In this document: piece by piece, positions 653 to 15,416 of the stretch
Layout: every line of letters begins with the position of its first letter
Position numbering within the stretch: the first letter of the stretch is position 1
Assembly: GCA_009668945.1 (NCBI GenBank)
Contig: SBEH01000014.1
Location: 1-32,692 of the forward strand
Reading direction: 5' to 3'
DNA length: 32,692 nucleotides
Source: Actinomycetota bacterium
Lineage (GTDB): Bacteria > Actinomycetota > Coriobacteriia > Anaerosomatales > Anaerosomataceae
Position numbers and translations under genes: made by a program
The notes under the pieces: model-generated
The model's input: only the letters and a program-made list of their open reading frames with translations
The model's database searches: none
Told to the model about the DNA's origin: nothing

Positions 653-2323
653 GTGGCGGAGGCTGGTCAGCGGCTAGGCGTGCTTCTCATGCGCGCCGGG
701 ATCATAACCGAGCGGCAACTCACAGACGCCCTCGAGGTGCACAAGGCCACGGGCAGTCCGCTCGGCCGCGTCCTCGTCGACCTTGGCTATGCGACGCAGG
801 GCGGCATCCTGTCGGTGATGGCCAAGCAGATCGGGATCCCGTACATCGACTTCTCCACTCAGCGCCCCGATGCCAACGCGGTAGCAGCCGTGCCGAAGGA
901 CCTGGCGGTCCGGTACACACTGATGCCTGTCACGATCGAGGACGACCAGTTGGTCGTCGCGATGGCAGACCCCCAGAACGTTCTCGCACTCGATGACTTG
1001 CGCATCATCACGGGCTACGAGATCAAGCCCGCGATCTCCACCAAGGACGACATCGTCGCCGCGGTCGAGGAATTCTACAAGGTCGCAACTACGCTCAGCG
1101 ATCAGGACATGGGGGGTGTCGAGGACCTCGAGGTGATGTCGCTCGAAGACCTGACCGAGGTCACCGACGAGGCGCCGATCGTCAAGTTGGTGAACTACAT
1201 CATCAACAAGGCGGTTGCGGACAGATCGAGCGACATCCACGTCGAGCCTCAGGAGAAGGACCTCCGCGTACGGTACCGGATCGACGGCGTTCTCCACGAG
1301 ATGATGCGCAGTCCGAAGAACACGCAGCAGGCGATCATCTCGCGCTTCAAGATCATGGCCGACATGGACATCGCTGAGACCCGCAAGCCGCAGGACGGGC
1401 ACTCGGCGCTCACCATCGGCGGCCACAAGATGGACTTCCGCGTCTCGACGCTACCCACGGTCTATGGCGAGCGCGTCGTGCTGCGTATCCTGCGCAAAGA
1501 CAACATCATGCTCAGGCTCGAGGACCTGGGCTTCCTGCCTACGGCACTCGAGCGTTTCGAGTCAGCGTTCCGCAAGCCGTACGGGGCAATCCTGGTCACC
1601 GGCCCGACCGGTTCGGGGAAGTCCACGTCTCTATACGCGGCCATCAACGTGTTGAACGAGCCGGGCAAGCACATCCTCACGGCCGAAGACCCGGTCGAAT
1701 ACCGGCTGCCAGGCGTGAATCAGATTCAGACGAACGTGAAGGCCGGACTCACGTTCGCACGCGCTCTGCGGTCATTCCTGCGCTGCTCGCCGGACATCAT
1801 CCTCGTGGGCGAGATTCGTGACCAGGAGACAGCGAAGATCGCAATCGAGTCTGCGCTCACCGGCCACCTCGTCCTTTCGACCCTGCACACGAACGATGCC
1901 GCGGGCGCCATCACCCGTCTCACCGAGATGGGTGTCGAGCCGTTCCTGGTCGCGTCATCGGTGGACTGCGTTCTTGCACAACGCCTGGCTCGGAGGCTTT
2001 GCCCGGACTGCAAGGAGGAGTACAAGCCCTCGAAGCAGGTCTTGCTCGATGCCGGGTTCCCCGAGGACAACCTCCCCGAGACCCTCTGGCGCACCAAGGG
2101 GTGCAAGAAGTGCGGTAACACCGGCTACCGGGGCCGACTCGGCGTGCACGAAGTGATGCTCGTCTCCGAGGAGATCGGCGAGCTGTGCGTTCGGGAGGCT
2201 ACCGCTGAGGCAATCAAAGACGTGGCAGTTGAGCAAGGTATGCTGACACTCAAGATGGACGGTCTAGAGAAGGTTCGGTTGGGTCGGACATCACTCGAGG
2301 AGATCGTTCGAGTCATCGTGTAG
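653..2323 (+). CDS. pilB: Type IV pilus assembly ATPase PilB (GspE family)
   Basis: Cytoplasmic hexameric ATPase that powers pilin polymerisation through the platform protein PilC. The 556-residue length is normal for PilB. Residues ~1-150 form the N-terminal GspE/MshEN-type domain (RLGVLLMRAGIITERQL start). The core carries Walker A GPTGSGKST at ~317, an Asp/His box (LVLSTLHTNDA) and Walker B-like DIILVGEIRD at ~381. A zinc-binding four-cysteine motif, CPDC at ~450 and CKKC at ~484, is typical of GspE/PilB and absent from the retraction ATPase PilT. Start is GTG with a GGAG sequence about 10 bases upstream. pilC follows after 76 bases. The paralogous comGA/gspE assignment is less likely because PilM, N and O homologues lie in the same locus. 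Confidence 0.95.
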   Translation: MAEAGQRLGVLLMRAGIITERQLTDALEVHKATGSPLGRVLVDLGYATQGGILSVMAKQIGIPYIDFSTQRPDANAVAAVPKDLAVRYTLMPVTIEDDQLVVAMADPQNVLALDDLRIITGYEIKPAISTKDDIVAAVEEFYKVATTLSDQDMGGVEDLEVMSLEDLTEVTDEAPIVKLVNYIINKAVADRSSDIHVEPQEKDLRVRYRIDGVLHEMMRSPKNTQQAIISRFKIMADMDIAETRKPQDGHSALTIGGHKMDFRVSTLPTVYGERVVLRILRKDNIMLRLEDLGFLPTALERFESAFRKPYGAILVTGPTGSGKSTSLYAAINVLNEPGKHILTAEDPVEYRLPGVNQIQTNVKAGLTFARALRSFLRCSPDIILVGEIRDQETAKIAIESALTGHLVLSTLHTNDAAGAITRLTEMGVEPFLVASSVDCVLAQRLARRLCPDCKEEYKPSKQVLLDAGFPEDNLPETLWRTKGCKKCGNTGYRGRLGVHEVMLVSEEIGELCVREATAEAIKDVAVEQGMLTLKMDGLEKVRLGRTSLEEIVRVIV

Positions 2324-2346
2324 CCCGGCCGGTCATCTGCCGATAC
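2319..2346 (+). promoter_or_regulatory. Candidate sigma-28-type promoter upstream of pilC
   Basis: A GCCGATAC box (2339-2346) matches the -10 of sigma-28/SigD/WhiG promoters at seven of eight positions. At the 16-base spacing seen in the two sister sites, the -35 position reads TGTA at 2319-2322, overlapping the pilB stop codon, which is a weak match to TAAA. The box lies 53 bases before the pilC start. This is the weakest of the three sites on its own. Confidence 0.4.
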
Positions 2347-2399
2347 TGCCGGTGTGATATCGTCAGGCTGTCAGTGACCACGCGAGAGGGGCATGCGCG

Positions 2400-3614
2400 A
2401 TGGCGACCGTCACTTTCAAGTACAACGTACGCGACAAGACCGGCAAGGTCATCAGCGGCAAGCTCGAAGGCGAGAACCGCGAGGCGGTAGCCAAGAAGCT
2501 CGCCCAGATGGGCTACATTGTTCTCGACCTCAACGAAGACCGGCTCGCAGCGCTGAGCAAGATCCAGTTCGGCACGACGGTCAAGATCAAGGACGTCACC
2601 ATCTTCGCTCGGCAGTTTGCGACCATGATCAACGCCGGTCTCTCGCTGACCAAGTGCCTGAGCATTCTCGGCAGCCAGTCGGAGAGCAAGGAGCTGCGGG
2701 AGGTCATCAACCAGCTCGCCAAGGACGTGGAAGCGGGGCAGTCCCTCTCGGAGGCGATGATCAAGCACCCGAGGATCTTCCCGCCGATCTTCTACAACAT
2801 GGTTCGCGCGGGCGAGACCGGTGGTGTGCTCGATGAGGTCTTGCTCCGAGTCGCCGACCTTTTTGAGGCGGATGCTGCACTCAAGGGCCGGATCAAGTCG
2901 GCGATGACGTACCCGATCGCAATGCTCGCGCTGGTCCTCATTATCCTCGTCGCGATGATGATCTTCGTCGTGCCCACGTTCCAGAAGATGTTCTCGGACA
3001 TGGGAGGCACGCTGCCGCTTCCCACGCGGATCCTCGTGAGCATCTCCGAGGGCGCGACCAGCTGGCCGGGTCTGGTAGTGGTCGGCGTGGGAATCGCCCT
3101 GACGATCGCCTTCCGCGCGTGGCATGCTACGGAATCAGGGAGGTACATCTGGGACGGCATACTGCTCCGTGCGCCGATAATCGGGCCGCTGCAGCGCAAG
3201 ACCGCTATCGCTCGCTTCACCAGGACGTTCAGCACGCTCGTCGCCGCCGGCGTTCCCATACTGTCGGCTATGGACATCGTTGCGGACACGGCAGGCAATG
3301 AAGTCGTCGCTCGTGCGTTGAAGAGCACCCGTGCTGCCGTCAAGGAAGGCGAGACGATCGCCAAACCGTTGGGGGAGTCGCCGGTATTCCCCTCGATGGT
3401 GGTGCAGATGGTCGCTGTGGGCGAGGAGACCGGTGCGCTCGATCAGATGCTCTCCAAGATCGCGGACTTCTACGATGAAGAGGTCAAGCAAGCGGTCGAC
3501 GCCCTCACGTCGGTGATCGAGCCAGTGATGATGGCGACACTCGGCGTGGTCGTTGGTGGCATGGTCATCGCGCTCTATATGCCGATGTTCCAGTCCATCA
3601 CGCTCATCAAGTAG
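2400..3614 (+). CDS. pilC: Type IV pilus inner-membrane platform protein PilC (GspF family)
   Basis: Polytopic membrane protein on which PilB acts during pilus assembly. The 404-residue length is standard. Two tandem GspF domains are visible: residues ~65-190 (starting near TIFARQFATMINAGLSL) and ~265-395 (RFTRTFSTLVAAGVPIL). Both contain the family's 'G-ETG-LD' signature (RAGETGGVLDE and GEETGALDQML). Three hydrophobic membrane helices appear: YPIAMLALVLIILVAMMIF, the WPGLVVVGVGIALTIAF region, and a C-terminal PVMMATLGVVVGGMVIALYM. Start ATG is preceded by AGAGGGG about 10 bases upstream. The pilin gene follows. Confidence 0.94.
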   Translation: MATVTFKYNVRDKTGKVISGKLEGENREAVAKKLAQMGYIVLDLNEDRLAALSKIQFGTTVKIKDVTIFARQFATMINAGLSLTKCLSILGSQSESKELREVINQLAKDVEAGQSLSEAMIKHPRIFPPIFYNMVRAGETGGVLDEVLLRVADLFEADAALKGRIKSAMTYPIAMLALVLIILVAMMIFVVPTFQKMFSDMGGTLPLPTRILVSISEGATSWPGLVVVGVGIALTIAFRAWHATESGRYIWDGILLRAPIIGPLQRKTAIARFTRTFSTLVAAGVPILSAMDIVADTAGNEVVARALKSTRAAVKEGETIAKPLGESPVFPSMVVQMVAVGEETGALDQMLSKIADFYDEEVKQAVDALTSVIEPVMMATLGVVVGGMVIALYMPMFQSITLIK

Positions 3615-3720: not shown

Positions 3721-4071
3721 ATGCGGATGTTCAAGAAGAGTGAGGGCTTCACCCTCGTCGAACTCATGGTCGTCGTTCTGATTATCGGTATCCTCGTTGC
3801 AATCGCTATCCCGGTCTTCAACGCTGCACAGGCTTCTGCTCGCAAGAGCGCGTGCCAGAACAACCTCCGTGTTCTCGACGGTGCGACCCAGCAGTTCCTC
3901 GCGGCTGACCCTGACAACACCACTGCCATGGTTGACGCCAACCCGTCCCTCCGTCTCGGAGCCTACGTCAAGCAGTGGGATCCCAACTGCCCGCAGACCC
4001 CGAACACGGCCTACACCGTTGCTTCTGGTGACTTCACCTGCGTAGTGCAGGCCAACCACAACTACGAGTAG
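3721..4071 (+). CDS. Type IV pilin, probable major pilin
   Basis: Structural subunit of the pilus fibre. The 116-residue precursor has a short basic leader (MRMFKKSEG) and the prepilin peptidase site G|FTLVE, so the mature protein starts at Phe10 and keeps Glu at mature position 5. The hydrophobic stalk is ~20 residues long (ELMVVVLIIGILVAIAIPVF). The globular part is small and has three cysteines (C45, C90, C107); the SACQNNLR and DPNCPQTP patterns resemble short pilins and ComGC-type pilins of Gram-positive bacteria. Start choice is firm: GGAGGTGA (3707-3714) sits 6 bases before ATG. It has its own promoter candidate and a strong hairpin after it, consistent with a highly expressed single-gene unit. 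Whether it is the major pilin is inferred from size, signals and position. Confidence 0.93.
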   Translation: MRMFKKSEGFTLVELMVVVLIIGILVAIAIPVFNAAQASARKSACQNNLRVLDGATQQFLAADPDNTTAMVDANPSLRLGAYVKQWDPNCPQTPNTAYTVASGDFTCVVQANHNYE

Positions 4072-4138: not shown

Positions 4139-4202
4139 TCGCTATGCACCGGTGTGGGTTATCCTTGTCGGAGGCAGTAGCCGGTACGAAGCGAGGGCAT
4201 CT

Positions 4203-5042
4203 GTGTCCGCCATCCCTGATTGGTGCTGGATAGTGTGCTTGGGTCTGCTTGGCCTCCTCGTGGGGAGTTTCGCGAACGTCGTCATCTGGCGGGTGCCGCG
4301 AGGAGAGTCGATCGTGAGTCCGGGCTCTCACTGTCCCCGCTGTGAGAAGCCGATCGTGTGGTACGACAACATCCCGGTCGTCTCTTGGCTGGCCCTGCGC
4401 GGACGGTGCCGGATTTGCGGCGCGCCGATCGCAATCCGATACCCGTTCGTGGAGGCTACGTCGGGTGGGTTGTTCGTCGCGGCGGGGCTGCTCTTCGATC
4501 TGCCCGTGCAGGCGCTCTTCGGTGCGGCCTTCTTCTGGCTCCTTCTCGTGCTGTCCGTCATCGACACGGATACGATGCGACTGCCCAATCCGCTTGTGGG
4601 CGTGCTGGCGGCGGTCGGTCTCGCGGGCGCGATCGTGGGTCAGGCGAGTGCTGCGCGGCTGACACCCCTCGTGGGTGTGGCCGCCTCCGGGTGGCTCTCC
4701 AGTCCGCTCGTATCGGGCTTCTTCGGCTGTGCTCTCGGTGCCGGATTGTCGGGAGGTATCGCCGCAGCTTACGGAGCTGTGCGAGGCAAGGCCGGCCTCG
4801 GGATGGGTGACGTCAAGCTGCTCGGCGCCATGGGGTTCTTCCTCGGGCCGTACGTGCTGCTCAGCCTCTTCTTCGGGAGCCTCATCGGCATCGTCGCCGG
4901 TACTGTCGGACAGCGCGGCAAGAGGGGATTGGCCGATCGCAAGATCCCGTTCGGGCCCTGGCTGGCCGCGGGAGGGGTGTTGGCTGCGACGATAGGTCCC
5001 CCGCTCGCTGAGTGGTACTTCCGTGTGATCGGTATCGCATGA
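4203..5042 (+). CDS. pilD: Prepilin leader peptidase / N-methyltransferase PilD
   Basis: Membrane aspartic protease (family A24) that cuts prepilins at G|F and usually N-methylates the new N-terminus. The 279-residue protein has the N-terminal methyltransferase-type domain with two zinc cysteine pairs (CPRC near 44 and CRIC near 70). A catalytic Asp pair region lies at 121/123 (VIDTDTMRLPNPL), and the second catalytic Asp is in GMGDVKLLG at ~203. About eight hydrophobic segments are evident. I chose GTG at 4203 because GAGGG lies 5 bases upstream. An in-frame GTG at 4152 exists but follows the hairpin by only 13 bases and adds a non-conserved, non-hydrophobic extension. Its substrates are the pilin and the three pseudopilins of this locus. 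Confidence 0.92.
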   Translation: MSAIPDWCWIVCLGLLGLLVGSFANVVIWRVPRGESIVSPGSHCPRCEKPIVWYDNIPVVSWLALRGRCRICGAPIAIRYPFVEATSGGLFVAAGLLFDLPVQALFGAAFFWLLLVLSVIDTDTMRLPNPLVGVLAAVGLAGAIVGQASAARLTPLVGVAASGWLSSPLVSGFFGCALGAGLSGGIAAAYGAVRGKAGLGMGDVKLLGAMGFFLGPYVLLSLFFGSLIGIVAGTVGQRGKRGLADRKIPFGPWLAAGGVLAATIGPPLAEWYFRVIGIA

Positions 5043-5099: not shown

Positions 5100-5163
5100 A
5101 CTCACCGGAGGCGCGAGTGCGTCTTGTCATGGTGTGCGTCGTACGTGATCGGAAGGGGTCGTG

Positions 5164-6696
5164 ATGAAGGGCATATCCAGGCGCTTCACACGAGATGAAG
5201 GAATGTCGCTGCTAGAGGTGGTTATCGCGGCAGCGATCCTGTTCATCATCATGACCGGCGTTCTCGGCCTGATCGGCAGGACGCTCTCGATGGGCGCGCA
5301 GGCCAAGGAGATCAACGTCAGCAACAACGCGGTGAACAGCTACGTCGAGTGGGTTCGTTCGCTGCCGTTCGACAGCATCACTACGACTTCAACACCCCCA
5401 TCGATTGAGACCACGGTTGTGGTGGCAGACGAGTACACGATCACCATCGTTCCACAGATCGCGCCCGGGTCCAATGATGCCCTGAAGGAGATGACGCTCA
5501 CTGTCACTGTGAATCGCGCCGACGGGTTCACAGAGACCTTCTCGACTATGGTTGTGGTCCGGGACCGCGATCAGAATCTGACCGAAGCGACTCGCAATCC
5601 GTCCACCGACCCAAGAATCAAGTACGTGTCGCCGAGCCCGCCGGACGGTACGGTGGTGTGGTACGAAGGCGGACAGTCGTGGTGGAAGGACGCCACTGGA
5701 ACCCTGCAGCCCCTGCAGTTCAAGGTCGAGGTGAAACCGTCGTCCGGTCGCACGATCCAGATCGTTCGCCTTGAGGGCGAGAACAGCTGGGTGCTGATGG
5801 ACGTGTTCAACAACCAGGCATCTTGGTCGCAGCCGACGTGGACGGTGTCCCCGCTCTTCGCATGGGACCTTGCACAGATGGCGTCGCTCACCGAGCCGCA
5901 GGTGAAGGAGGGCCGGCGGGACGTCTGGGCGCTCACGACGGACAACGCGAGCGCACAAGGTTCCGACATGCGGGTCTATCTGGTGGACAACCTAGCACCC
6001 TCGAATCTGCCTGCCGCCCCGACGTTCACCCCAAGCACCACATCTTGGGGTGGCAAGCTCGATTGGGCGGTCGTGAATGACGGCAACACGTTCGCGGATC
6101 ACTACTACCTGCGAGTTCTTCGGCACGACGTGTATGGCACCTGGACATCTCCCGGCTGGCCTGCGGTATTCAATGGCGCCGTCCCGTCCAACACCTGGAC
6201 GGTTCCGTCGAGCGAGCAGCCGTTCTGCCGGTACGTTGCGGAGGCCGCGGCGGAGAGCCCGCGTGGCTTGCGCAGCGCTACGACGGCGTGGACGACCTTC
6301 ATCACACGGCCAAAGGTCACAGGCACGTATACCCTGTCAGGCAATAACAAGAAGTGGGACGTCACGACCGTGTCGCTGAGTTGCGGCGCACCTCGATTTC
6401 CGACCACTGGCACGATCACGTATCAATGGTACACAGTGGACGGGACGACCGAGACGCTGTTCGCTACTGTCACACAGTCAAGCCCTTCGCCCCCTCCGGG
6501 TCCGGCGGTCACCGCATCGCGCACCAAGGATTCGGTTGCAGACTATCCGACGACACCGCTTCTGGGTTATCGCTGCAAGGTGACCTTCACCCCGTGCGGG
6601 ATGTACGCGCCAACAACGATGACCCTGACCTCGAACACTGTCTACGCAGAGATGCCCGCCGGCACCAGCAAGGCCTTCACCGAGGGGGCGTGGTAG
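5164..6696 (+). CDS. Large prepilin-like protein with extended C-terminal ectodomain
   Basis: Minor pseudopilin, likely inserted at the pilus tip or initiating assembly. The 510-residue length is several times that of a normal pilin. The class III leader is visible (cut at DEG|MSLLEVVIAA, Glu at mature +5), followed by a hydrophobic helix (VIAAAILFIIMTGVLGLIG). The rest is an extracellular region rich in Thr, Ser, Pro, Val and Trp; the last ~100 residues look immunoglobulin-like (TITYQWYTVDG, then a cysteine-containing strand YRCKVTF). I chose ATG 5164 over GTG 5161 because GGAAGGGG (5151-5158) then has a 5-base spacing. It resembles PilV/PilW-type minor pilins in position; the ectodomain's ligand is unknown. 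It is followed after 3 bases by the next pseudopilin. Confidence 0.8.
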   Translation: MKGISRRFTRDEGMSLLEVVIAAAILFIIMTGVLGLIGRTLSMGAQAKEINVSNNAVNSYVEWVRSLPFDSITTTSTPPSIETTVVVADEYTITIVPQIAPGSNDALKEMTLTVTVNRADGFTETFSTMVVVRDRDQNLTEATRNPSTDPRIKYVSPSPPDGTVVWYEGGQSWWKDATGTLQPLQFKVEVKPSSGRTIQIVRLEGENSWVLMDVFNNQASWSQPTWTVSPLFAWDLAQMASLTEPQVKEGRRDVWALTTDNASAQGSDMRVYLVDNLAPSNLPAAPTFTPSTTSWGGKLDWAVVNDGNTFADHYYLRVLRHDVYGTWTSPGWPAVFNGAVPSNTWTVPSSEQPFCRYVAEAAAESPRGLRSATTAWTTFITRPKVTGTYTLSGNNKKWDVTTVSLSCGAPRFPTTGTITYQWYTVDGTTETLFATVTQSSPSPPPGPAVTASRTKDSVADYPTTPLLGYRCKVTFTPCGMYAPTTMTLTSNTVYAEMPAGTSKAFTEGAW

Positions 6697-6699
6697 GTC

Positions 6700-7260
6700 G
6701 TGGCTGGCCATCTCAGGCGCGACATGGGTTACACGTTGACCGAGATGCTGGTCGTCATCGGCCTACTCGGCTTCGTCGTTGGCGGCGCGTACGCGCTGTT
6801 CCACTTGGCACGAACCGGCACGGACATGAGCGACAAGCAGGCCTGGACGAGCCGAGAGATCGGACAGCCTCTCGAGCACATGGAGCGTCTGCTGTCACAG
6901 CAGGTTCCGCCGCTGATCACCGGTGACGCATACGTCTGCGAAATCAAGACGGACCAGGACCGTGACAATCACTACGAATACCACAGGTTCGAGGCCACCG
7001 CGGACGGCCGGCTCGTCGAGCGCGTGTACGAGCTGGTCGACAACCCAACGCCGCGCACGGTGGTGTGGTCTCAGAACAACACCAACCGGGCAACCGGCAG
7101 GCGCATATTCACCTACTACGACATTGCCGGCAACAACTTGCAGGGGCAGCAGCCTCTGTATGTCCAGCAGTACGCCGCGAGCGTCGTCATCGAGGTGGTC
7201 ACTGACCGCGACGGAGATGTGTACTCCGATTCCCGCCAGGTGTTCTTCCGCAACCGCTAG
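6700..7260 (+). CDS. Prepilin-like minor pseudopilin (PilW/PulJ-like)
   Basis: A 186-residue pseudopilin with a leader cut at DMG|YTLTEMLVVIG, Glu at +5, and a ~20-residue stalk (MLVVIGLLGFVVGGAYALF). After the stalk comes a mixed alpha/beta ectodomain with several charged residues and the strand-like end ASVVIEVVTDRDGDVYSDSR, typical of the GspJ/PilW group. GTG start is 3 bases after the previous stop, with GAGGGGG about 12 bases upstream, so translation is coupled. It is the middle gene of a three-gene pseudopilin operon. Confidence 0.8.
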   Translation: MAGHLRRDMGYTLTEMLVVIGLLGFVVGGAYALFHLARTGTDMSDKQAWTSREIGQPLEHMERLLSQQVPPLITGDAYVCEIKTDQDRDNHYEYHRFEATADGRLVERVYELVDNPTPRTVVWSQNNTNRATGRRIFTYYDIAGNNLQGQQPLYVQQYAASVVIEVVTDRDGDVYSDSRQVFFRNR

Positions 7261-7291
7261 CCGCGTACGCGACGATTGGGGTGCTAGGGAC

Positions 7292-8860
7292 ATGACGAAG
7301 CGACACGCAGCGCACTCGGCGATGTGGGCCGATGACGGCGTCGCCCTGATCACGGTGATCGGCGTGATGCTGGTGATCACCATCCTGGCGATCGGGTCTT
7401 TCAGTCTGGCGAGCCAGACGCTATTCGACGCTCAGCGCGCCGAGGATGAGACGCGTGCGTTTCGCGCGGCGAGTGCCGGAATCGACACCGTGATCTCCGC
7501 GTTCGGGCCGAGCACGCTCGCGTCATACCAGGGGATGCAGGTCACCACGCCCGACGGGACGGCCACGCTCACCGTGAGTCAGACCGGCGGAGACGCCGGC
7601 GAGTATGAGATCGTCTCGCGGGGCCAGGGCCTCGATGGAAGCACCGAGACACTTGTACAGCGGTTCTTCTACATAAATCTGTGGGAGATGAACTTCGCCG
7701 GCACCGGCTCTCAGTCCCTGATGAGCGGCTCGAGCGGTATGAACGGTTCCTCCAACATCTACGGCCCGTTCTACATCAAGGGGAACCTGGCTGTGGAAGC
7801 GAACATGTCTGTGATGGAGGGCCCGCTATTCGTGAAGGGCGGCAAACTCTCCACCAAGTCCGGGGCCTCACAGATCGGCGCGTCCACCCGCCCGGTCAAG
7901 GTGTACTGTGACGGCGGCACCGATCTCGCCAAGGGCAGCGTCTTCGTCGCCGGTCCGTTCTTGTCGGTCCCGGAGATCACGCTCCCCGGCATCACCTACG
8001 ACGACATGCGTGCCTACTCGATACGCGCGCAGTCGGAGTCGATCGATGGCCTGATGAGCAAGCAGTACATCGCGGCACCCCTCGCCAACATGGAGCTGAC
8101 CAGCCGCGGCGGGGCGATGTACAAGTACTTCGGAGACACCACCGCCACTATCGATCCGCTCGGTGCCGGCGACACCGTGCTGGCACTCGGTGGGGCAGCC
8201 AGTAGTGTCACGATCACCGGCTACGGCACTTACCCGTGCAGGGGCACATTCGGCTCGTGGGGCGCGGTCGATACTACTGGCGCCGTTGTTCCCGCCGGTG
8301 GCTCGGCGCCTTACGACGCAGCGCACAGGAACACGTTTGATGACTTCGCCTACTGGGACGAGTTCACTGGCGAGTGGGACCTCATCTACATCAGTGGCAC
8401 TGTCTTTGTAGACGGCCCGCTGGTCATCAATGACGATTGCCTGTACATCGGCAACGGCACGATCGTTGCCAACGGTCCGGTGATCCTGAACGGGCGTCTC
8501 CGTCCGTACAGCTACTCGACGGCCGACGTAGTCGTGAACAAAGTGGGTGAGGACAAGAAGTGGGCGATGGGGATCGTCACGCCGAAGTCCATCACGCTGA
8601 AGGGGCGCGGATCCAACGACGGCACGACGCCCATCCGCGACAACGCATTCGACTACGCTGGCGCGTTCTATACCGACGACACGATCTTCGTGCCTCAGCC
8701 ACTAACATCTCTTCGTGGTTCCATCCTCTCGAACAAGATGGAGTTCTCTTCTCCTAACACCGACCTGGTCACCAACCCGCTTCTGCCGACCTATCTGCCG
8801 GACTCGCTGCCCGGTGGCGGCGAGGGCATCATCACGCCCGGGTTGTGGAGTCGTATGTAA
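7292..8860 (+). CDS. PilX-like large minor pilus protein with repetitive beta-rich ectodomain
   Basis: A 522-residue protein with an N-terminal PilX/GspK-like hydrophobic segment (VALITVIGVMLVITILAIGSF). It has the VALITVI pattern in place of the FTLxE consensus, so it may be a non-cleaved or atypically processed subunit. Residues ~140-520 are rich in Gly, Ser, Asn and short beta repeats (YGPFYIKGNLAVEAN; VFVDGPLVINDDC; GTIVANGPVILNGRL) that suggest a right-handed beta-helix like those of bactofilin/polymer-forming domains. ATG 7292 follows the previous gene by 31 bases. The open frame extends far upstream, but there it lies inside the preceding pseudopilin and carries no pilus signature. A surface or tip function is inferred. 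Confidence 0.78.
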   Translation: MTKRHAAHSAMWADDGVALITVIGVMLVITILAIGSFSLASQTLFDAQRAEDETRAFRAASAGIDTVISAFGPSTLASYQGMQVTTPDGTATLTVSQTGGDAGEYEIVSRGQGLDGSTETLVQRFFYINLWEMNFAGTGSQSLMSGSSGMNGSSNIYGPFYIKGNLAVEANMSVMEGPLFVKGGKLSTKSGASQIGASTRPVKVYCDGGTDLAKGSVFVAGPFLSVPEITLPGITYDDMRAYSIRAQSESIDGLMSKQYIAAPLANMELTSRGGAMYKYFGDTTATIDPLGAGDTVLALGGAASSVTITGYGTYPCRGTFGSWGAVDTTGAVVPAGGSAPYDAAHRNTFDDFAYWDEFTGEWDLIYISGTVFVDGPLVINDDCLYIGNGTIVANGPVILNGRLRPYSYSTADVVVNKVGEDKKWAMGIVTPKSITLKGRGSNDGTTPIRDNAFDYAGAFYTDDTIFVPQPLTSLRGSILSNKMEFSSPNTDLVTNPLLPTYLPDSLPGGGEGIITPGLWSRM

Positions 8861-9049: not shown

Positions 9050-10171
9050 TTGGGTTCCCTCTCCTTCGGTTCGAGCCAGAGTGCTATCGGTCTCGACATC
9101 GGAACCGAGCACGTAAGGGTCGCTCAGGTCAAGCCGTCCGGCGCTGGCTTCACGCTGACCGCGTACGGGCATGTCGATGTCCCCATGGGCGCGGTCGCCG
9201 ACGGGGAGATCATCGACGCGGCTGCCGTCTCCTCGGCAATCAAGGAACTCTGGCGCCGAAGCAACGTCCGGGGCAAGGAAGTGAGCACGGGCGTATCGAA
9301 CCAGCGGGTCATCGTGCGGCTGATCGACCTGCCGTTCATGGAGCGCGGCGAACTGCAGAGCGCTATCCAGTATCAGGCTCAGGACTACATCCCGATGGCG
9401 GTGGAGGACTCTATTCTCGACTTCCAGATCATCGGTGATTACATGACCTCAAACGACGAGCACATGATGGAGGTTCTGCTTGTCGCTGCCCACCGCGAGA
9501 TGATCGGCAACACGGTAACCGCGATCGAAGGCGCCGGACTCAAGCTCGGGCAGATCGACGTATCCTCCTTCGCCATCGTTCGCGCACTGATGGGCGAGGG
9601 ACCCGGCGTGCTCCCGGACGATGAGGGGCAGGCAACCGCGATCATCCACATCTCCGCGGGTATCACCAACATCGCGGTAGTGGAGCGCGGCATCCCTCGC
9701 TTCAACCGCATCTCGTCGCTCGCCGGCAGCACGTTCTCGCAGGCGATCGCGAACGCTCTCAACGTGAGCTTCGAAGAGGCGGAGCAACTCAAGATCGTCG
9801 TGGGCCTCCCGGATGTCGAGACCGGCGAAGGAGAGCAGACGCCCGGAGTGAGTCCGGAGCAGACGCAGATGGTCCACCAGTCACTCGAGCGTGAGGTGAA
9901 CAAGTTCATCGCCGAGGTGCGGCGTTCACTTGACTACTACCTCACGCAGACATCGCAGGTCAGGAACATCCAGCGCATCCTGCTGACCGGCAGCGGCGCG
10001 CAACTCCGCAACTTGTCTGCCTACCTATCCAAGGGTCTGCAGGCCCAGGTGCTCATCGGCGACCCGCTAGAGCGGATGCAAGTCGCCAGCTCCGCGCAGG
10101 CTGCGGTGAACGCGGACAGGATGGGCAGCGTGACCGCCATCGGGCTCGCGCTGGGAGGGCTGCAGAAATGA
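9050..10171 (+). CDS. pilM: Type IV pilus actin-like assembly protein PilM
   Basis: Cytoplasmic actin-fold protein that binds the N-terminal tail of PilN and links the PilNO(P) complex to the assembly machinery. The 373-residue length fits the family. The N-terminal phosphate-1 loop AIGLDIGTEHVRVAQV and an internal second actin-like motif (TAIIHISAGITNIAVVERG) are visible; the C-terminal LLTGSGAQLRNLSAYL is the adenosine-binding region. The start is an uncommon TTG, supported by GAAGGAGGA (9036-9044) at 5-base spacing. The stop overlaps the pilN start (ATGA), indicating translational coupling. Confidence 0.93.
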   Translation: MGSLSFGSSQSAIGLDIGTEHVRVAQVKPSGAGFTLTAYGHVDVPMGAVADGEIIDAAAVSSAIKELWRRSNVRGKEVSTGVSNQRVIVRLIDLPFMERGELQSAIQYQAQDYIPMAVEDSILDFQIIGDYMTSNDEHMMEVLLVAAHREMIGNTVTAIEGAGLKLGQIDVSSFAIVRALMGEGPGVLPDDEGQATAIIHISAGITNIAVVERGIPRFNRISSLAGSTFSQAIANALNVSFEEAEQLKIVVGLPDVETGEGEQTPGVSPEQTQMVHQSLEREVNKFIAEVRRSLDYYLTQTSQVRNIQRILLTGSGAQLRNLSAYLSKGLQAQVLIGDPLERMQVASSAQAAVNADRMGSVTAIGLALGGLQK

Positions 10172-10755
10172 TGCGCATCAACCTGCTCCCGCCCGAGATA
10201 CTCGACCGCCGCAAGGCTGAGAAGCGCATAGGTTGGGTGGTGTTGGCTGCTATCGGCGTGGCCGTCATCCTCGTGGGTGTCTGGGCGTTCGCGTTCCTCA
10301 ACCTAAGAGGTCAGGAGGACGAGCTTGCAGCGATCCAGCAGCAGGTGCAGACCACGAACGCGCAGGCCGCACAACTTGCGATCTTCGAGGAGCGAGCCGC
10401 GGAACTCGAGTCTCGCCGGGTGACGGCGGCCCAGGCCCTCGACGGGCGGCGGAGCTGGGCGAAGCTCTTCAACGAGCTGTCGCTGGTTCTGCCTTCCGAT
10501 GTATGGATCCAGACTCTTTCCGCCGACCAGGCGACGGGACTGCAGATCGCGGGCTACGCGGTCGATGTGGCAAACGACTCGCCCGACGCGGGACACAAGG
10601 CGATAGCGAAAATGCTGGTTCGGCTAGCGGATCTAGATCAGCTCAGGAATGTCTGGCTGTCCAGCTCCACCAAGTCGGACTTTGAGGAGCAGCCGGCGAT
10701 CCAGTTCGCAGTCTCCGCCGAAGTCGTCGACCCCACGACGGGAGCGACGCAATGA
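10168..10755 (+). CDS. pilN: Type IV pilus assembly protein PilN
   Basis: Bitopic inner-membrane protein of 195 residues. The extreme N-terminus MMRINLLPPEILDRRK carries the conserved INLLP motif that docks into PilM. One membrane helix follows (WVVLAAIGVAVILVGVWAFAFL), then a coiled coil (~50-90) and a ferredoxin-like outer domain (WIQTLSAD...LQIAGYA). It forms a heterodimer with PilO. The start overlaps the pilM stop by 4 bases. Confidence 0.9.
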   Translation: MMRINLLPPEILDRRKAEKRIGWVVLAAIGVAVILVGVWAFAFLNLRGQEDELAAIQQQVQTTNAQAAQLAIFEERAAELESRRVTAAQALDGRRSWAKLFNELSLVLPSDVWIQTLSADQATGLQIAGYAVDVANDSPDAGHKAIAKMLVRLADLDQLRNVWLSSSTKSDFEEQPAIQFAVSAEVVDPTTGATQ

Positions 10756-10841
10756 TGACGGTCCTGACACGCATCCATCCGCGACGGGCGAGCCTGCCCC
10801 GCCGTGTACGCTCGATCCGACGCGGAGGATGTGAATCATGA
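10752..10841 (+). CDS. Possible 29-residue Arg-rich ORF bridging pilN and pilO
   Basis: A small frame starts with ATGATG inside the pilN stop (AATGA overlap) and ends with TGA inside the pilO start (ATGA overlap). It would encode 29 residues with about nine arginines and no recognisable domain. Reading it would carry ribosomes from pilN to pilO across the 82-base gap. Whether the peptide is made or matters is unknown. pilO has its own SD (GGAGGAT), so the ORF is not needed to explain pilO expression. Confidence 0.25.
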   Translation: MMTVLTRIHPRRASLPRRVRSIRRGGCES

Positions 10842-11437
10842 GGCAGCTCTCGGCGCAGGTGCAGATGTACATCGCGATAGGCGTCATCGTGGTGGTCACG
10901 CTCGCCGTGGCGTTCCTTGTGATCCTCCCGCTGTTCCAGGAGGCGTCGGCGATCAAGGGTGAGATCGCCACCGAGCAGCAGAATCTGGCGACTGCCCAGG
11001 CGTTGCTGGCCAGGCGTCAGAGCGCCAAGGCGCAGTCTGCCGCGAACGAGGTCGAACTGATGCGTATCGCGAACGCGATTCCGGATGCGCCGCAGCTGCC
11101 GTCGGTGATAATCGAATTGCAGGACATCGCGAACGCGTCAGGCGTCGAGTTCATCTCGCTGTCGCCGTCCGATCTCACTCTCGCGGCGGCTCTCCCGGAC
11201 GGGACCGTTCCTGCATTCAGCAGCGTTCCGATGAGCTTGACCCTGAGTGGCAGCTGGTCCGAGCTGATCGACTACATGAATCGAGTGCACGCGCTCGATC
11301 GCGGCGTGCGCGTGACGACCTCCTCCTTCACCTACGTACCGGCAACGGAAGAGGAGCCGGCATTCATCAATGCTTCGGTGACTCTGGAGGTCTACGTCAT
11401 GGCCGCAAGCACGACCACCGGCGCGAGTGCGCCCTAG
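10838..11437 (+). CDS. pilO: Type IV pilus assembly protein PilO
   Basis: Bitopic inner-membrane protein of 199 residues that pairs with PilN. A short cytoplasmic N-terminus is followed by one helix (MYIAIGVIVVVTLAVAFLVILPLF), a coiled coil rich in Gln/Ala (~45-85) and a ferredoxin-like domain (~90-185) including LSGSWSELIDYMNRVHALDR, a PilO signature-like segment. GGAGGAT lies 8 bases upstream of ATG. The order pilM-N-O is the canonical alignment-complex order. Confidence 0.9.
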   Translation: MRQLSAQVQMYIAIGVIVVVTLAVAFLVILPLFQEASAIKGEIATEQQNLATAQALLARRQSAKAQSAANEVELMRIANAIPDAPQLPSVIIELQDIANASGVEFISLSPSDLTLAAALPDGTVPAFSSVPMSLTLSGSWSELIDYMNRVHALDRGVRVTTSSFTYVPATEEEPAFINASVTLEVYVMAASTTTGASAP

Positions 11438-11461
11438 CAGTCCGAGAAGGAGGTGACGACC

Positions 11462-12067
11462 GTGTCCGATGAACTCACCAGCGCGCCCGTACCGCCGAGC
11501 GCATCTGCGGACAAGAAGTCTGGATTCCTAGCTACGTCGACGGGCAAGATCGTCGCGATCGTCGTCGGGCTCGGCGTGCTGGGCATCATAGCCGGGGTGG
11601 CCGTAGCGATCGTCCTCTACGTATTCGGCAGCCAGGCCGTGGACCAATTGGAGGAGCTGGCGCAGCAGCCTGCGACCAGTACGAGCGGTGAGGCCACGAG
11701 CACTGCGGGTGCCGATGTTCCGGCTCCGGCGGCCGAGCTCCCCAACTCGGAGATCTTCACGTTCCGGGACATCTTCGTTCCGCTGCTAAAGCCGCTGACG
11801 GCTGCGACGACGACAGGTACGAGCACGGGGACGACCGACACCGTGACGCCTACCAGCAGCAACACGCTGTACCTCGATGGCGTCGTCACGGAGAACGGTG
11901 TTCTGATGGCCCAGCTTCGCTGGAACGGCACGTCGTACTCGTTGGCTGCTGGCGGGACGATTCCGAACTCACCGTGGCAGGTCCTGCGGGTGTCATCGAC
12001 GAGCGTGACGATGCTCTACGGCGACACGCAGGTGACGCTGTCGGTGGGCCAGGGCATCACGAAGTAG
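11462..12067 (+). CDS. PilP/GspC-like protein closing the pilMNO operon
   Basis: A 201-residue single-pass membrane protein: cytoplasmic N-terminus, helix IVAIVVGLGVLGIIAGVAVAI, a Thr/Ser/Ala-rich linker, then a small beta domain near the C-terminus (YLDGVVTENGVLMAQLRW...WQVLRVSSTSVTMLYG). That domain has the strand order and Gly pattern of PilP/GspC homology regions; TFRDIFVPLL stands where PilP has its 'DPF' motif. A monoderm has no secretin, so its partner would differ from that of Proteobacterial PilP. The GTG at 11462 is the start because AAGGAGGTGA (11447-11456), a perfect anti-SD match, lies 5 bases before it; the earlier in-frame GTG is inside that SD. Confidence 0.7.
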   Translation: MSDELTSAPVPPSASADKKSGFLATSTGKIVAIVVGLGVLGIIAGVAVAIVLYVFGSQAVDQLEELAQQPATSTSGEATSTAGADVPAPAAELPNSEIFTFRDIFVPLLKPLTAATTTGTSTGTTDTVTPTSSNTLYLDGVVTENGVLMAQLRWNGTSYSLAAGGTIPNSPWQVLRVSSTSVTMLYGDTQVTLSVGQGITK

Positions 12068-12178: not shown

Positions 12179-13327
12179 GTGCGCTACACCACGGCAGGAG
12201 AGTCCCACGGGCGGGCGCTGCTCGCCATTGTATCCGGTGTTCCAGCCGGTGTGCCCGTGTCGCAGGACGCTATCGACGTACAGCTGGCGAGACGCCAATC
12301 CGGCTACGGGCGTGGCGGACGCATGGGCATCGAGACCGACACAGCGCGGGTCTTGTCCGGAGTGCGGTTCTCACACACGATCGGAAGTCCCGTAGCGCTG
12401 CTAATCGAGAATCTCGACGCGCAGAATTGGCTTGAGGCGATGGATGTGTGGGGTCACGGCGCCGACGTGGAACCGGTGACCGCGCCCCGTCCCGGTCATG
12501 CGGACCTGCCGGGACTGCAGCGCACCGGGGCGGCCGACGTGCGAGACGTCCTAGAGCGGGCGAGCGCACGGGAGACAGCCGCGCGCGTAGCCGCGGGGGC
12601 GATTGCCCGAGCGTTCCTCGCAGAGGTGGGCGTCCTGGTCCGCTCGTGGGTGGAGGCGATCGGCGGGGTCGGCACGGGAGCGCTTGTCCCGTCCGCGGTG
12701 GATCAGGCCGCGGTCGCCGCCAGCGATGTGAGCTGTCCGGACCCGGAGACTGCAGCGCGCATGCGCACGGCGATCGATGCGGCGCATGAGCAGGGGGAGA
12801 GCGTCGGCGGCACCTTCACCGTGTGCGCGGAGGGGCTCGTTCCGGGCCTCGGCACGTATGCCGAGGCCGCGGAGCGTCTCGATGCGCGTCTTGCGGCCGC
12901 GGTGATGTCGATTCCGGCGATCAAGGGCATCGAGTTTGGTGACGGCTTCGCCTGCGCCGCGCGGCCCGGGTCCGCGGTCCACGATGAGATCGTGCTAGAA
13001 GCGCCTGGGCGCCTTCGGCGGGCCAGCAACAGGGCCGGCGGCGTGGAGGGCGGCATGTCTAACGGAGAGCCGCTGGTGCTGCGTGCGGCTATGAAGCCGA
13101 TTCCGACGCTCATGCGGCCGCTGAAGACGATAGACATCGCGACCGGTGAGGTAGCCGACGCAGCGAAAGAGCGCTCTGATGTCTGCGCTGTTCCGGCCGC
13201 GGCGGTCGTTGCCGAGGCCGAGGTGGCGATGGTGCTCGCCGACGCGTACCAGGATCTCTTCGGGCACGGCCCGTTGGCAGACGTGCAGCGCGCACTGGGG
13301 GACTATCGGGCAAGGATTTCGTGGTGA
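12179..13327 (+). CDS. aroC: Chorismate synthase
   Basis: Catalyses the last shikimate step, 5-enolpyruvylshikimate-3-phosphate to chorismate, using reduced FMN. The 382-residue length is typical. Family signatures are visible: the N-terminal GESHGRALLAIVSGVPAG; RRQSGYGRGGRMGIE with the phosphate-binding Arg residues; RPGHADLPG; ASARETAARVAAGAIAR; and the C-terminal SNRAGGVEGGMSNG followed by MKPIPT. GTG start has GGAGGGAGGGG closely upstream. Its stop overlaps the start of aroKB, so the aro genes are translationally coupled. Confidence 0.97.
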   Translation: MRYTTAGESHGRALLAIVSGVPAGVPVSQDAIDVQLARRQSGYGRGGRMGIETDTARVLSGVRFSHTIGSPVALLIENLDAQNWLEAMDVWGHGADVEPVTAPRPGHADLPGLQRTGAADVRDVLERASARETAARVAAGAIARAFLAEVGVLVRSWVEAIGGVGTGALVPSAVDQAAVAASDVSCPDPETAARMRTAIDAAHEQGESVGGTFTVCAEGLVPGLGTYAEAAERLDARLAAAVMSIPAIKGIEFGDGFACAARPGSAVHDEIVLEAPGRLRRASNRAGGVEGGMSNGEPLVLRAAMKPIPTLMRPLKTIDIATGEVADAAKERSDVCAVPAAAVVAEAEVAMVLADAYQDLFGHGPLADVQRALGDYRARISW

Positions 13328-14973
13328 GCCACCTGTTTCTGACAGGCTTCATGGGAGCCGGCAAGTCGACCGTGGGGCGGATCGTCGCCGAGAAGCTTGA
13401 CCGGCCATTCATCGATCTCGACGCTGAGATCGAGCGCCAGGAGGGAGTCAGTATCGAGGCGCTCTTCGAGGCGCGCGGGGAGGCCGCCTTCAGGGACGCC
13501 GAACACGCAGCGCTTGAGTCGCTTGTGGGAGCTCAGCCGTCCGTGGTGGCGACCGGAGGCGGTCTGGTGCTCCGTGAGGACAATCAGGGGCTGCTCCGAG
13601 CGCACGGTGTGGTGGTCTACCTGGCAGTGACACCCGAGGAGGCCATGGCGCGGTTGGGGGGTGCAGCAGGTCGTCCGCTGCTGTCCGGCGGGGGCCTCGC
13701 GGCCGCGCGGGACATCCTGTCGGCGCGACTCTCAGTCTACTCGGCCACCGCTGACCACGTTGTGGACACGGACGGACTGACACCGCAGCAGGTTGCGGAG
13801 ACCGTTCTGGAGGCCATCGGGGCGACGGGGTCGGTCCGCGTGGTGCGGGTAGGCGGCGAGCAGGGATACTGCGCCTACGAGATCATCCTGGGAGACGGGC
13901 TTGTCGGACGGCTCGGCGAGCGCGTTGCACCTGTGTGCCATTCCCGATCCGTGGCCCTGGTCACGGACGTGAACGTGGATGCTCTCTATGGCAGCGCGGC
14001 TGCGGCGTCGCTGGAGAACGCCGGGCTTTGCGTGAGCCGTCACGTACTGCCCGCGGGGGAGGAGTCCAAGTCCTGGACGGTCGCGGGTGGCTTGCTCGAG
14101 GAGTTCGCCGCCCGTGGCGTGGATCGCAGCTCGGCCGTGGTGGCGCTGGGTGGCGGGGTGGTCGGAGATGTAGCGGGGTTCTGTGCCGCTTCGTACATGC
14201 GAGGCGTCGACCTGGTCCACGTGCCTACCACCTTGCTTGCCCAGGTGGACAGCTCGATCGGCGGGAAGACGGGCGTCGACCTGGCGGCGGGCAAGAACCT
14301 TGCGGGCGCCTTCTGGCCGCCGGCCCTCGTGATCACGGACTCCGCGGTCTTGCAGTCACTTCCTGCGTCCGAGTGGACGAACGGGCTTGTCGAGACGGTC
14401 AAGGCGGCGCTTCTCGCAGGCGAGGCGTCACTGGCGAGGGTCGAACGGGACCTCGAGCGGCTCATGGACCGGGAAGGCGAAGCAGTGCGGGCCACGGTGG
14501 CCGATGCAGTCATGTTCAAGGCGCGAATCGTCACCGAAGACCTGCGCGAAGCCGGTCTGCGGGAGTGCCTCAACCTCGGCCATACGCTTGGCCATGCACT
14601 CGAGCTCCTGAGCGGATACGGAAGCCTCTCGCACGGTCTTGCCGTGGCGGAGGGGATGCGGTTCGCGTGCTCGCTGGCGACCAAGGTCGTGAATCCGGAT
14701 CCAGGACTGGCGGCGCGTGTTGGCACGATTCTCGACGGGATCGGCGCAGGTCGCGAACCCGTCCTGCATGCGCTCGTGCCGCACCTGAAGGCGATCACGC
14801 CGCAGTCCGTGCTCGCGGCGATGAAGGGGGACAAGAAGGCGCGGGGCGGGGTCGTGCGCTTCGTCCTGCTTCGGGCCCCGGGTACCTGGCGAGTCGAGGA
14901 GATTGATGAGAGTCTTCTTCTCGAGGAGCTGACGGCGTGGGCATCCGATCTCGCGGAGGGGGGAGTGCGGTAG
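13324..14973 (+). CDS. aroKB: Bifunctional shikimate kinase / 3-dehydroquinate synthase
   Basis: A 549-residue fusion of two shikimate enzymes. Residues ~1-170 are AroK: P-loop GFMGAGKST at 8-16, DLDAEIE substrate region, ATGGGLVL, and a lid Arg region (GGAAGRPLL). Residues ~175-545 are AroB, the NAD- and metal-dependent cyclase: ALGGGVVGDVAGF at ~273, VPTTLLAQVDSSIGGKTGV (Lys near 313-315), and metal ligand region LNLGHTLGHALE at ~417. Both halves look complete. GTG 13324 overlaps the aroC stop (GTGA) and has AAGGA 7 bases upstream; GTG 13321 is the alternative. The TAG stop shares one base with the aroQ GTG. Confidence 0.95.
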   Translation: MSHLFLTGFMGAGKSTVGRIVAEKLDRPFIDLDAEIERQEGVSIEALFEARGEAAFRDAEHAALESLVGAQPSVVATGGGLVLREDNQGLLRAHGVVVYLAVTPEEAMARLGGAAGRPLLSGGGLAAARDILSARLSVYSATADHVVDTDGLTPQQVAETVLEAIGATGSVRVVRVGGEQGYCAYEIILGDGLVGRLGERVAPVCHSRSVALVTDVNVDALYGSAAAASLENAGLCVSRHVLPAGEESKSWTVAGGLLEEFAARGVDRSSAVVALGGGVVGDVAGFCAASYMRGVDLVHVPTTLLAQVDSSIGGKTGVDLAAGKNLAGAFWPPALVITDSAVLQSLPASEWTNGLVETVKAALLAGEASLARVERDLERLMDREGEAVRATVADAVMFKARIVTEDLREAGLRECLNLGHTLGHALELLSGYGSLSHGLAVAEGMRFACSLATKVVNPDPGLAARVGTILDGIGAGREPVLHALVPHLKAITPQSVLAAMKGDKKARGGVVRFVLLRAPGTWRVEEIDESLLLEELTAWASDLAEGGVR

Positions 14974-15416
14974 TGCTGCGCATTCTGGTCGTCAACGGAC
15001 CGAATCTGAACCTGCTCGGCAGGCGCGAGCCGGATGTATACGGCACGGCGACGCTCGACGAGATAGAGGCGATGGTCGCGACCCGCGCCGCGGAGCTCGG
15101 TGTGGACGTGTACTTCTTCCAATCGAACCACGAGGGCGCCATCATCGACCGGCTCCACGAAGCGATCGATGTCTGCGACGGCGTCGTGATCAACCCGGGT
15201 GCCTACACGCACTACTCCTACGCCATCCGTGACGCGATCGCCGCAATCGGAATGCCTTCGGTGGAGGTGCACTTGAGCGACATCAGCGCGCGCGAGGACT
15301 TCCGCGCGGTGAGCGTGACCGCCCCGGTCTGCATTGACCAGGTGTCGGGTCTGGGGGCAGCATCGTATCTTGAGGGCCTGGAACTGCTGGTGTCCCGGTT
15401 GCGCGAGGAGGACTGA
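14973..15416 (+). CDS. aroQ: Type II 3-dehydroquinate dehydratase
   Basis: Dehydrates 3-dehydroquinate to 3-dehydroshikimate. The 147-residue length is that of the dodecameric type II enzyme. NGPNLNLLGRREPDVYG includes the catalytic Tyr23; QSNHEGAIIDRLHEA, INPGAYTHYSYAIRDAI and the catalytic-His segment VEVHLSDISAREDFR follow in family order. GTG at 14973 overlaps the aroKB stop by one base and has GGAGGGGGGAG 8 bases upstream; an earlier in-frame GTG lies inside aroKB. The usual S/N after VEVHLS is Asp here, a minor change. The stop overlaps the next start (TGATG). Confidence 0.95.
   Translation: MLRILVVNGPNLNLLGRREPDVYGTATLDEIEAMVATRAAELGVDVYFFQSNHEGAIIDRLHEAIDVCDGVVINPGAYTHYSYAIRDAIAAIGMPSVEVHLSDISAREDFRAVSVTAPVCIDQVSGLGAASYLEGLELLVSRLREED

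Follow-up and report, generated by a model that had tools for sequence, protein, structure and literature searches.

A predicted type IV pilus tip with a ComZ-like capping pilin and a modular pilin in an Anaerosomatales bacterium

The first 12 kb of contig SBEH01000014.1 (positions 1 to 32,692 of the forward strand, the whole 32,692-nucleotide stretch analysed here and called the window; GenBank assembly GCA_009668945.1) form a single pilus operon on the + strand. The window belongs to the 1.92 Mb genome, in 32 contigs, of an actinobacterium of the family Anaerosomataceae. The operon encodes three minor pilins of 510, 186 and 522 residues, which we label V, W and X. We consider it probable that V-W-X prime and cap a type IVa-like pilus, with X as the cap, and that the beta-solenoid of X and the immunoglobulin-like (Ig) rod of V are displayed at the tip. 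That two of the minor pilins are oversized had been read from the DNA alone in an original prediction, and the reading frames of V and X bear this out. The features on which the argument rests are the following.

5164..6696, + strand: V, modular minor pilin of 510 residues in the place of the I subunit (GspI/PilV/ComGE), from Glu5, family matches and the model; start ATG at 5164, with an in-frame GTG at 5161
5200..5574, + strand: V pilin module, residues 13-137; AlphaFold helix 16-66 and four strands within 84-133
5596..6693, + strand: V ectodomain, three domains of Ig or fibronectin type III (FN3) type at about 145-276, 279-384 and 386-510, the middle one FN3, from the model and fold comparison
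6700..7260, + strand: W, minor pilin of ordinary size, 186 residues, GspJ/GspH-like
7292..8860, + strand: X, predicted capping minor pilin of 522 residues, ComZ/GspK-like, without Glu5; start ATG at 7292
7337..7681, + strand: X pilin module, first part, residues 16-130; AlphaFold helix 11-70 and strands within 82-129
7682..8806, + strand: X beta-solenoid, about residues 131-505, from the model and matches of ice-binding DUF3494 solenoids over 128-496 (Z 12-13.6)
8807..8857, + strand: X last strand (model strand 512-521, conserved ...GLWSR), taken as returning to the pilin sheet

The AlphaFold model of X, built with 30 sequences, has a mean predicted local distance difference test score (pLDDT) of 83.3 and a predicted template modelling score (pTM) of 0.78. 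Comparison of this model with 350,542 PDB chains by Foldseek returned ComZ of Thermus thermophilus (6qvi) with an E value of 5.2e-12, the next match lying at 0.17. A second aligner likewise placed ComZ first, with a Z score of 25.8 and a root mean square deviation (rmsd) of 7.0 over 362 residues (X 47-522 against ComZ 10-522; next Z 13.6). Ice-binding DUF3494 solenoids align to residues 128-502 of the model (Z 11.8-13.6), and the alignment of the Streptococcus sanguinis pilins PilA and FimA (7o5y, 3sok; Z 7.0) reaches residue 522. Given the spans of the ComZ, pilin and ice-binding alignments, we place the solenoid between the N-terminal sheet and the last strand of the pilin part. As modelled, X seems to be a pilin fold with a beta-solenoid inserted between its penultimate and last strands, as in ComZ, on the reading of the model strands and alignment spans. 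Trp519 and Arg521 of the last strand occur in at least 90% of the 30 X sequences. The available part of the report on the ComZ structure gives the same placement of the solenoid before the last strand and sets out the argument for a tip location (PMC6561018).

The original prediction of a beta-helix in this pilin is thereby upheld, with ComZ as its nearest relative. The match to the bactofilin fold, one of those it had listed for comparison, is poor and unspecific (Z 5.5 over 88 residues); bactofilin and haemolysin-type helices as a group reached Z 5-6, far below ComZ, a generic beta-helix resemblance. Pfam reported no von Willebrand family, also on that list, for either V or X. It gave no convincing domain for X at all, a match of one X sequence to Glu_syn_central (18.0 bits, under the cut-off) being taken as chance.

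Sequence profiles lead to the same relative. A phylum-wide X profile (A5; 21 rows, including 11 order-level or Actinomycetota rows and nine of 26 phylum loci with a clean frame, one clean fragment being excluded) finds ComZ at an E value of 2.8e-5 through four collinear stretches, each weak by itself. ComZ is its sole significant match among 177,635 PDB sequences, the next lying at 0.75. At E≤0.01, 17 of 30 X homologues show a weak match to the GspK model NF037980, and DUF7305 and PilX_N are each matched by four of the 21 phylum-wide relatives. A genome search with DUF7305 matched 3/61 genomes, none above the cut-off, and 0/14 controls. Judged by profile and fold together, we take X to be a relative of Thermus ComZ (PDB 6QVI), which also joins a pilin fold to a large beta-solenoid before the last strand, has no Glu5-type start, measures about 500 residues and is encoded beside small minor pilins. 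Identity between the two in fold alignments is 16-19%.

The start of X points to its position in the fibre. Cleaved behind Gly16, mature X would begin VALITVI, and its fifth residue would be Thr in place of the Glu of pilins. In all 30 aligned X sequences this position holds Thr, Ala, Leu, Val or Ile and never Glu; Glu5 is kept in every aligned sequence of V (28/28) and W (21/21). A pattern-based recount found Glu5 in 41/46 and 25/28 V sequences and a start without Glu in 42/42 and 30/31 X sequences (one truncated). The V sequences missed in the recount were two truncated ones, L106 (an X-type start labelled V) and others judged to be pattern artefacts. The accessible text on tip-located minor-pilin complexes describes the cap as the subunit without Glu5 and filaments as growing from tip to base (PMC10191384). 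The best explanation for the missing Glu5 is that no subunit lies above X, and there is strong support for X at the GspK/PilK-type capping position. The N-terminus that the original prediction had singled out as atypical is therefore present as described but no oddity, being a known mark of the capping minor pilin. X resembles in this respect GspK/PulK, the tip pseudopilin of type II secretion, a cap without Glu5 at the end of the I-J-K gene series; in GspK the inserted domain is alpha-helical and falls between strands 3 and 4, according to the portion available of PMC6561018, whereas that of X is a beta-solenoid near the C-terminus.

V is of a different build. Its AlphaFold model (mean pLDDT 82.8, pTM 0.60) and fold comparison confirm the Ig-like end foreseen for one large pilin and refine it from one domain to three of Ig/FN3 type. 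The V profile matches the FN3 domain of PDB 1uem at an E value of 2.6e-7 (profile positions 280-364), Pfam fn3 is found in 3/23 V homologues, and superposition of V 278-384 on FN3 as a single domain gives an rmsd of 2.3 over 97 residues. A sequence search of the PDB with the window V alone gave nothing significant. Likeness to the FN3 rods of receptors we read as one of fold only. On model and profile, we take V to be a modular pilin, an N-terminal pilin module joined to non-pilin Ig/FN3 modules. The InterPro entry IPR003961 is presumably the FN3 entry. It is among the 15 commonest architectures of modular pilins in the part of the survey available to us (PMC8179133).

The two ectodomains have diverged differently. 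Identity of V to its nearest relative falls from the pilin part outward (0.62, 0.46, 0.34, 0.34), and that of X is level between pilin part (0.71) and solenoid (0.70). Over 28 loci the corresponding values are 0.41, 0.32, 0.31 and 0.29 for V, and 0.46 and 0.44 for X. This pattern fits an exposed, diversifying V rod on a conserved X cap; relaxed constraint on linker-like V domains would give the same pattern.

The arrangement is widely conserved. With the window proteins as queries against 61 genomes (own genome, genus, family and order), X was matched in 48 and V in 49. Homologues of V and X adjoin each other in relatives, which confirms that both large genes are real, and are about 500 residues long there too. 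The order V-W-X occurs in 41/47 fetched loci that had a match, and the three genes lie between pilD and pilM in 38; the remaining six have incomplete sets or a partial locus. The original prediction was right that the major pilin has 116 residues but not that it is very small, since 42/43 pilins in the fetched loci measure 111-137 residues (the remaining one is truncated at the edge of its contig). A wider X profile matched 61/246 genomes of the class. Within the order it matched 59/69 genomes, 48 of them across pilin and solenoid parts, three as contig-end fragments and eight in the N-terminal part only; in the rest of the class it matched 2/177. This split was counted from rows, the kinship of 165 unlisted genomes being taken from their sorting. 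Across the phylum 104/396 genomes were matched, and outside the class 22 genomes of eight families matched in both halves of X; most other phylum rows are confined to 60-120 positions at the N-terminus and fall in long open frames. The sequence sets A1 and A2 used 22/42 X and 22/46 V loci, A3 and A4 used 29/31 X and 27/28 V loci (truncated sequences left out), and A6 used 20/30 W loci.

Gene order, folds, the relation to ComZ, the loss of Glu5 and wide conservation form the computed basis of the tip position, which the original prediction had proposed for both large pilins as one option beside rarity in the fibre; it is strongly supported for X, and for V we infer it. Tip assembly, stoichiometry, binding and retraction by PilT would then follow a scheme of this kind. 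After insertion into the membrane and cleavage by PilD, X, W and V would assemble into a priming complex, with X on top and W (J/H-like) and V (I-like) below. PilB would add the small pilin beneath this complex, where growth would start, so that each fibre would end in one solenoid from X and probably one Ig rod from V. The tip modules would bind a surface, polymer or other ligand, and PilT-family ATPases would retract the pilus and pull on what is bound. V and X may serve as adhesins or surface sensors, as the original prediction had suggested. PilY1 (PF05567) found no match in the genome at E≤1; the model matched 1/14 control genomes, with none above the cut-off. Given this absence of a PilY1 match, the minor pilins may themselves do the binding.

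Several observations count against a V-W-X tip complex. Support for it is computational throughout. The window X alone matches neither PilX_N nor DUF7305 and lies under the GspK cut-off (11.3 bits against 130 for NF037980), and a sequence search of the PDB with it gave nothing significant. An order-level X profile did not find ComZ in the PDB, its sole match being a designed protein (E value 1.1), and the link to ComZ depends on the phylum-wide profile or on fold. For V and W, matches to the I, J and H models are weak and stay under the cut-offs. The window V scores 16.2 bits with ComGE (cut-off 49) and 15.9 with PilV (cut-off 52.2) and lies under all cut-offs; at E≤0.01 its homologues match ComGE in 11/28 cases, HpsB in 9/28, PilV in 4/28 and GspI in 1/28. 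The window W matches gspJ at an E value of 7e-4, and its homologues match GspH (13/21) and GspJ (1/21) at E≤0.01. The domain arrangement of V in its model is uncertain, as its pTM suggests, and V, which keeps Glu5, could also sit in the shaft.

What the tip would bind allows several readings. One, which we hold tentatively, is an adhesive tip for minerals or surfaces, peculiar to the subsurface life of these bacteria. FN3/Ig-type modules and the fast divergence of distal V fit an adhesin, and the available part of PMC9686372 describes Anaerosomatales isolates as non-motile with pili-like appendages, seen in one isolate in the presence of insoluble ferrihydrite but absent with soluble Fe(III) citrate. 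The same text gives these appendages as 0.8-0.9 nm and does not establish them as type IV pili. The presence of V and X in those isolates is an assumption, and the X family extends to other actinobacterial families. A related proposal, to which we give rather less than an even chance, is a compound receptor with two arms, adapted to insoluble minerals or polymers, in which a conserved ComZ-type solenoid cap would be paired with an I-position pilin bearing a diversifying Ig-FN3-Ig rod. If this is true, the ComZ design would be a general tip architecture across phyla and not a speciality of Thermus competence.

We think it unlikely that the tip is instead a DNA receptor of the kind proposed for ComZ with PilA2, in which X would bind DNA that is drawn in by retraction and passed to ComEC. 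The relation of X to ComZ and the PilT-family ATPases of this genome agree with such a role, as does ComEC, found here and in 54/61 searched genomes; ComEC and X are both nearly universal, so this count cannot discriminate. X differs from ComZ in having a monoderm host. Against DNA binding, the ectodomain of X is acidic (isoelectric point 4.50; 4.1-6.5 in 30 relatives). In weak local alignments with a numbering offset of 2, the place of ComZ Lys98 has no Lys (Glu at 96 in 15/30, Asp at 97 in 10/30), while that of Lys233 is Lys or Arg in 19/30, including Lys203 of the window. X was matched, moreover, in 5/7 genomes without a ComEC match, these being fragmented (230-520 contigs). By analogy with ComZ, capture of DNA by X is possible but not favoured. 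We hold it very improbable that the large subunits lie dispersed over the fibre or that the filament is a short secretion pseudopilus. V keeps Glu5 and can pack in a shaft, and the GspI/J/K-like names derive from type II secretion, but PilB, PilMNO and two PilT-family ATPases point to a retractable pilus, and the loss of Glu5 and the inserted solenoid of 375 residues speak against X in a shaft.

No part of the proposed V-W-X tip is without precedent: X has its counterpart in ComZ, V in the modular pilins, and the pairing of two bulky tip pilins in S. sanguinis. The comparisons also mark differences. The ComZ partner PilA2 is a pilin fold with a small subdomain only, in the portion of PMC6561018 available, while V carries an Ig/FN3 rod. 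In S. sanguinis, as far as the accessible accounts go, the modular pilins PilB and PilC likewise give a monoderm pilus tip bulky modules, but these are von Willebrand A and lectin modules in place of a solenoid and an Ig/FN3 rod, and here the I-like subunit itself is modular. We see in the tip a clear-cut new instance of an established design and no new kind of machine. In the open-access literature searched we found no description of a solenoid cap combined with an Ig/FN3 pilin across an order of monoderm actinobacteria, no paper on Coriobacteriia type IV pili with minor pilins, and none joining minor pilins, fibronectin type III and type IV pili. The result would carry the ComZ architecture beyond a diderm thermophile into monoderm actinobacteria, with full-length relatives in one order and eight families outside its class. 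It offers a simple rule, absence of Glu5 plus a solenoid, for finding pilus tips missed by Pfam and NCBIfam, and turns the question of the pilus target into one about two defined, expressible ectodomains.

The operon runs pilB, pilC, major pilin, pilD, V, W, X, pilM, pilN, pilO and a PilP-like gene, followed by aroC. Its other pilus genes are the following.

653..2323, + strand: PilB extension ATPase (NCBIfam TIGR02538, 652.9 bits, just below the cut-off of 675.65)
2400..3614, + strand: PilC/GspF platform protein (NCBIfam PilC models 415 bits, GspF 364 bits, under the cut-offs)
3721..4071, + strand: major pilin, 116 residues, Glu5 present (Pfam N_methyl 33.2 bits, above the cut-off)
4152..5042, + strand: PilD prepilin peptidase (Pfam A24_N_bact 120.1 bits, Peptidase_A24 50.2 bits)
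9050..12067, + strand: PilM, PilN, PilO and PilP-like protein, inner-membrane platform (Pfam PilM_2 191.9, PilN 34.6, PilO 34.9 bits, above the cut-offs)
11453-12067, within the preceding: PilP-like protein (pilP_fam E value 0.0014, under the cut-off)

PilT is encoded outside the operon, by two PilT-family ATPases elsewhere in the genome (491.9 and 446.9 bits; cut-off 319.1), and the type IVa set of PilB, PilC, PilD, PilMNO and a retraction ATPase is complete across the genome. An open frame of 586 residues (L152:490-2247, - strand; G000:C11:155202-155696) matches receiver domains at 32-165 and PilT-family ATPases at 235-577, a possible fusion of response-regulator receiver and PilT. Between pilB and pilC, many relatives (L063-L100) have a second ATPase of about 360-420 residues that is probably PilT; no such gene occurs there in the window (2323-2400) or in its nearest relative L061.

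PilB itself has an MshE-type cyclic di-GMP motif in its N-terminal residues 7-59 (NF053729, 55.3 bits, above the cut-off of 38), and extension of the pilus may accordingly be under cyclic di-GMP control. A second PilB-like ATPase, 53% identical, is encoded on another contig (G000:C32; L147:10462-17102), followed by a Roadblock/MglB-like protein, a 637-residue protein and a small GTPase-like protein, the names of the small genes being read from sequence; the set stops at the contig end inside a Pro-Ala-Glu repeat. Relatives have a second PilB roughly 6 kb upstream, and this contig may therefore border the window. A fourth N_methyl pilin, short and GspG-like, lies outside the operon (G000:C7:54919-54981; L149), and some relatives (L073-L077, L082) have two major-pilin genes in it.

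Shikimate genes follow the pilus operon (window 12179-15416): a gene taken as aroC on its sequence and neighbours, a fused aroK-aroB of 550 residues, and aroQ. Nearly all of the long loci from relatives likewise have aroC after their pilus genes, and the junction of pilus and shikimate genes recalls pilMNOPQ-aroKB of proteobacteria.

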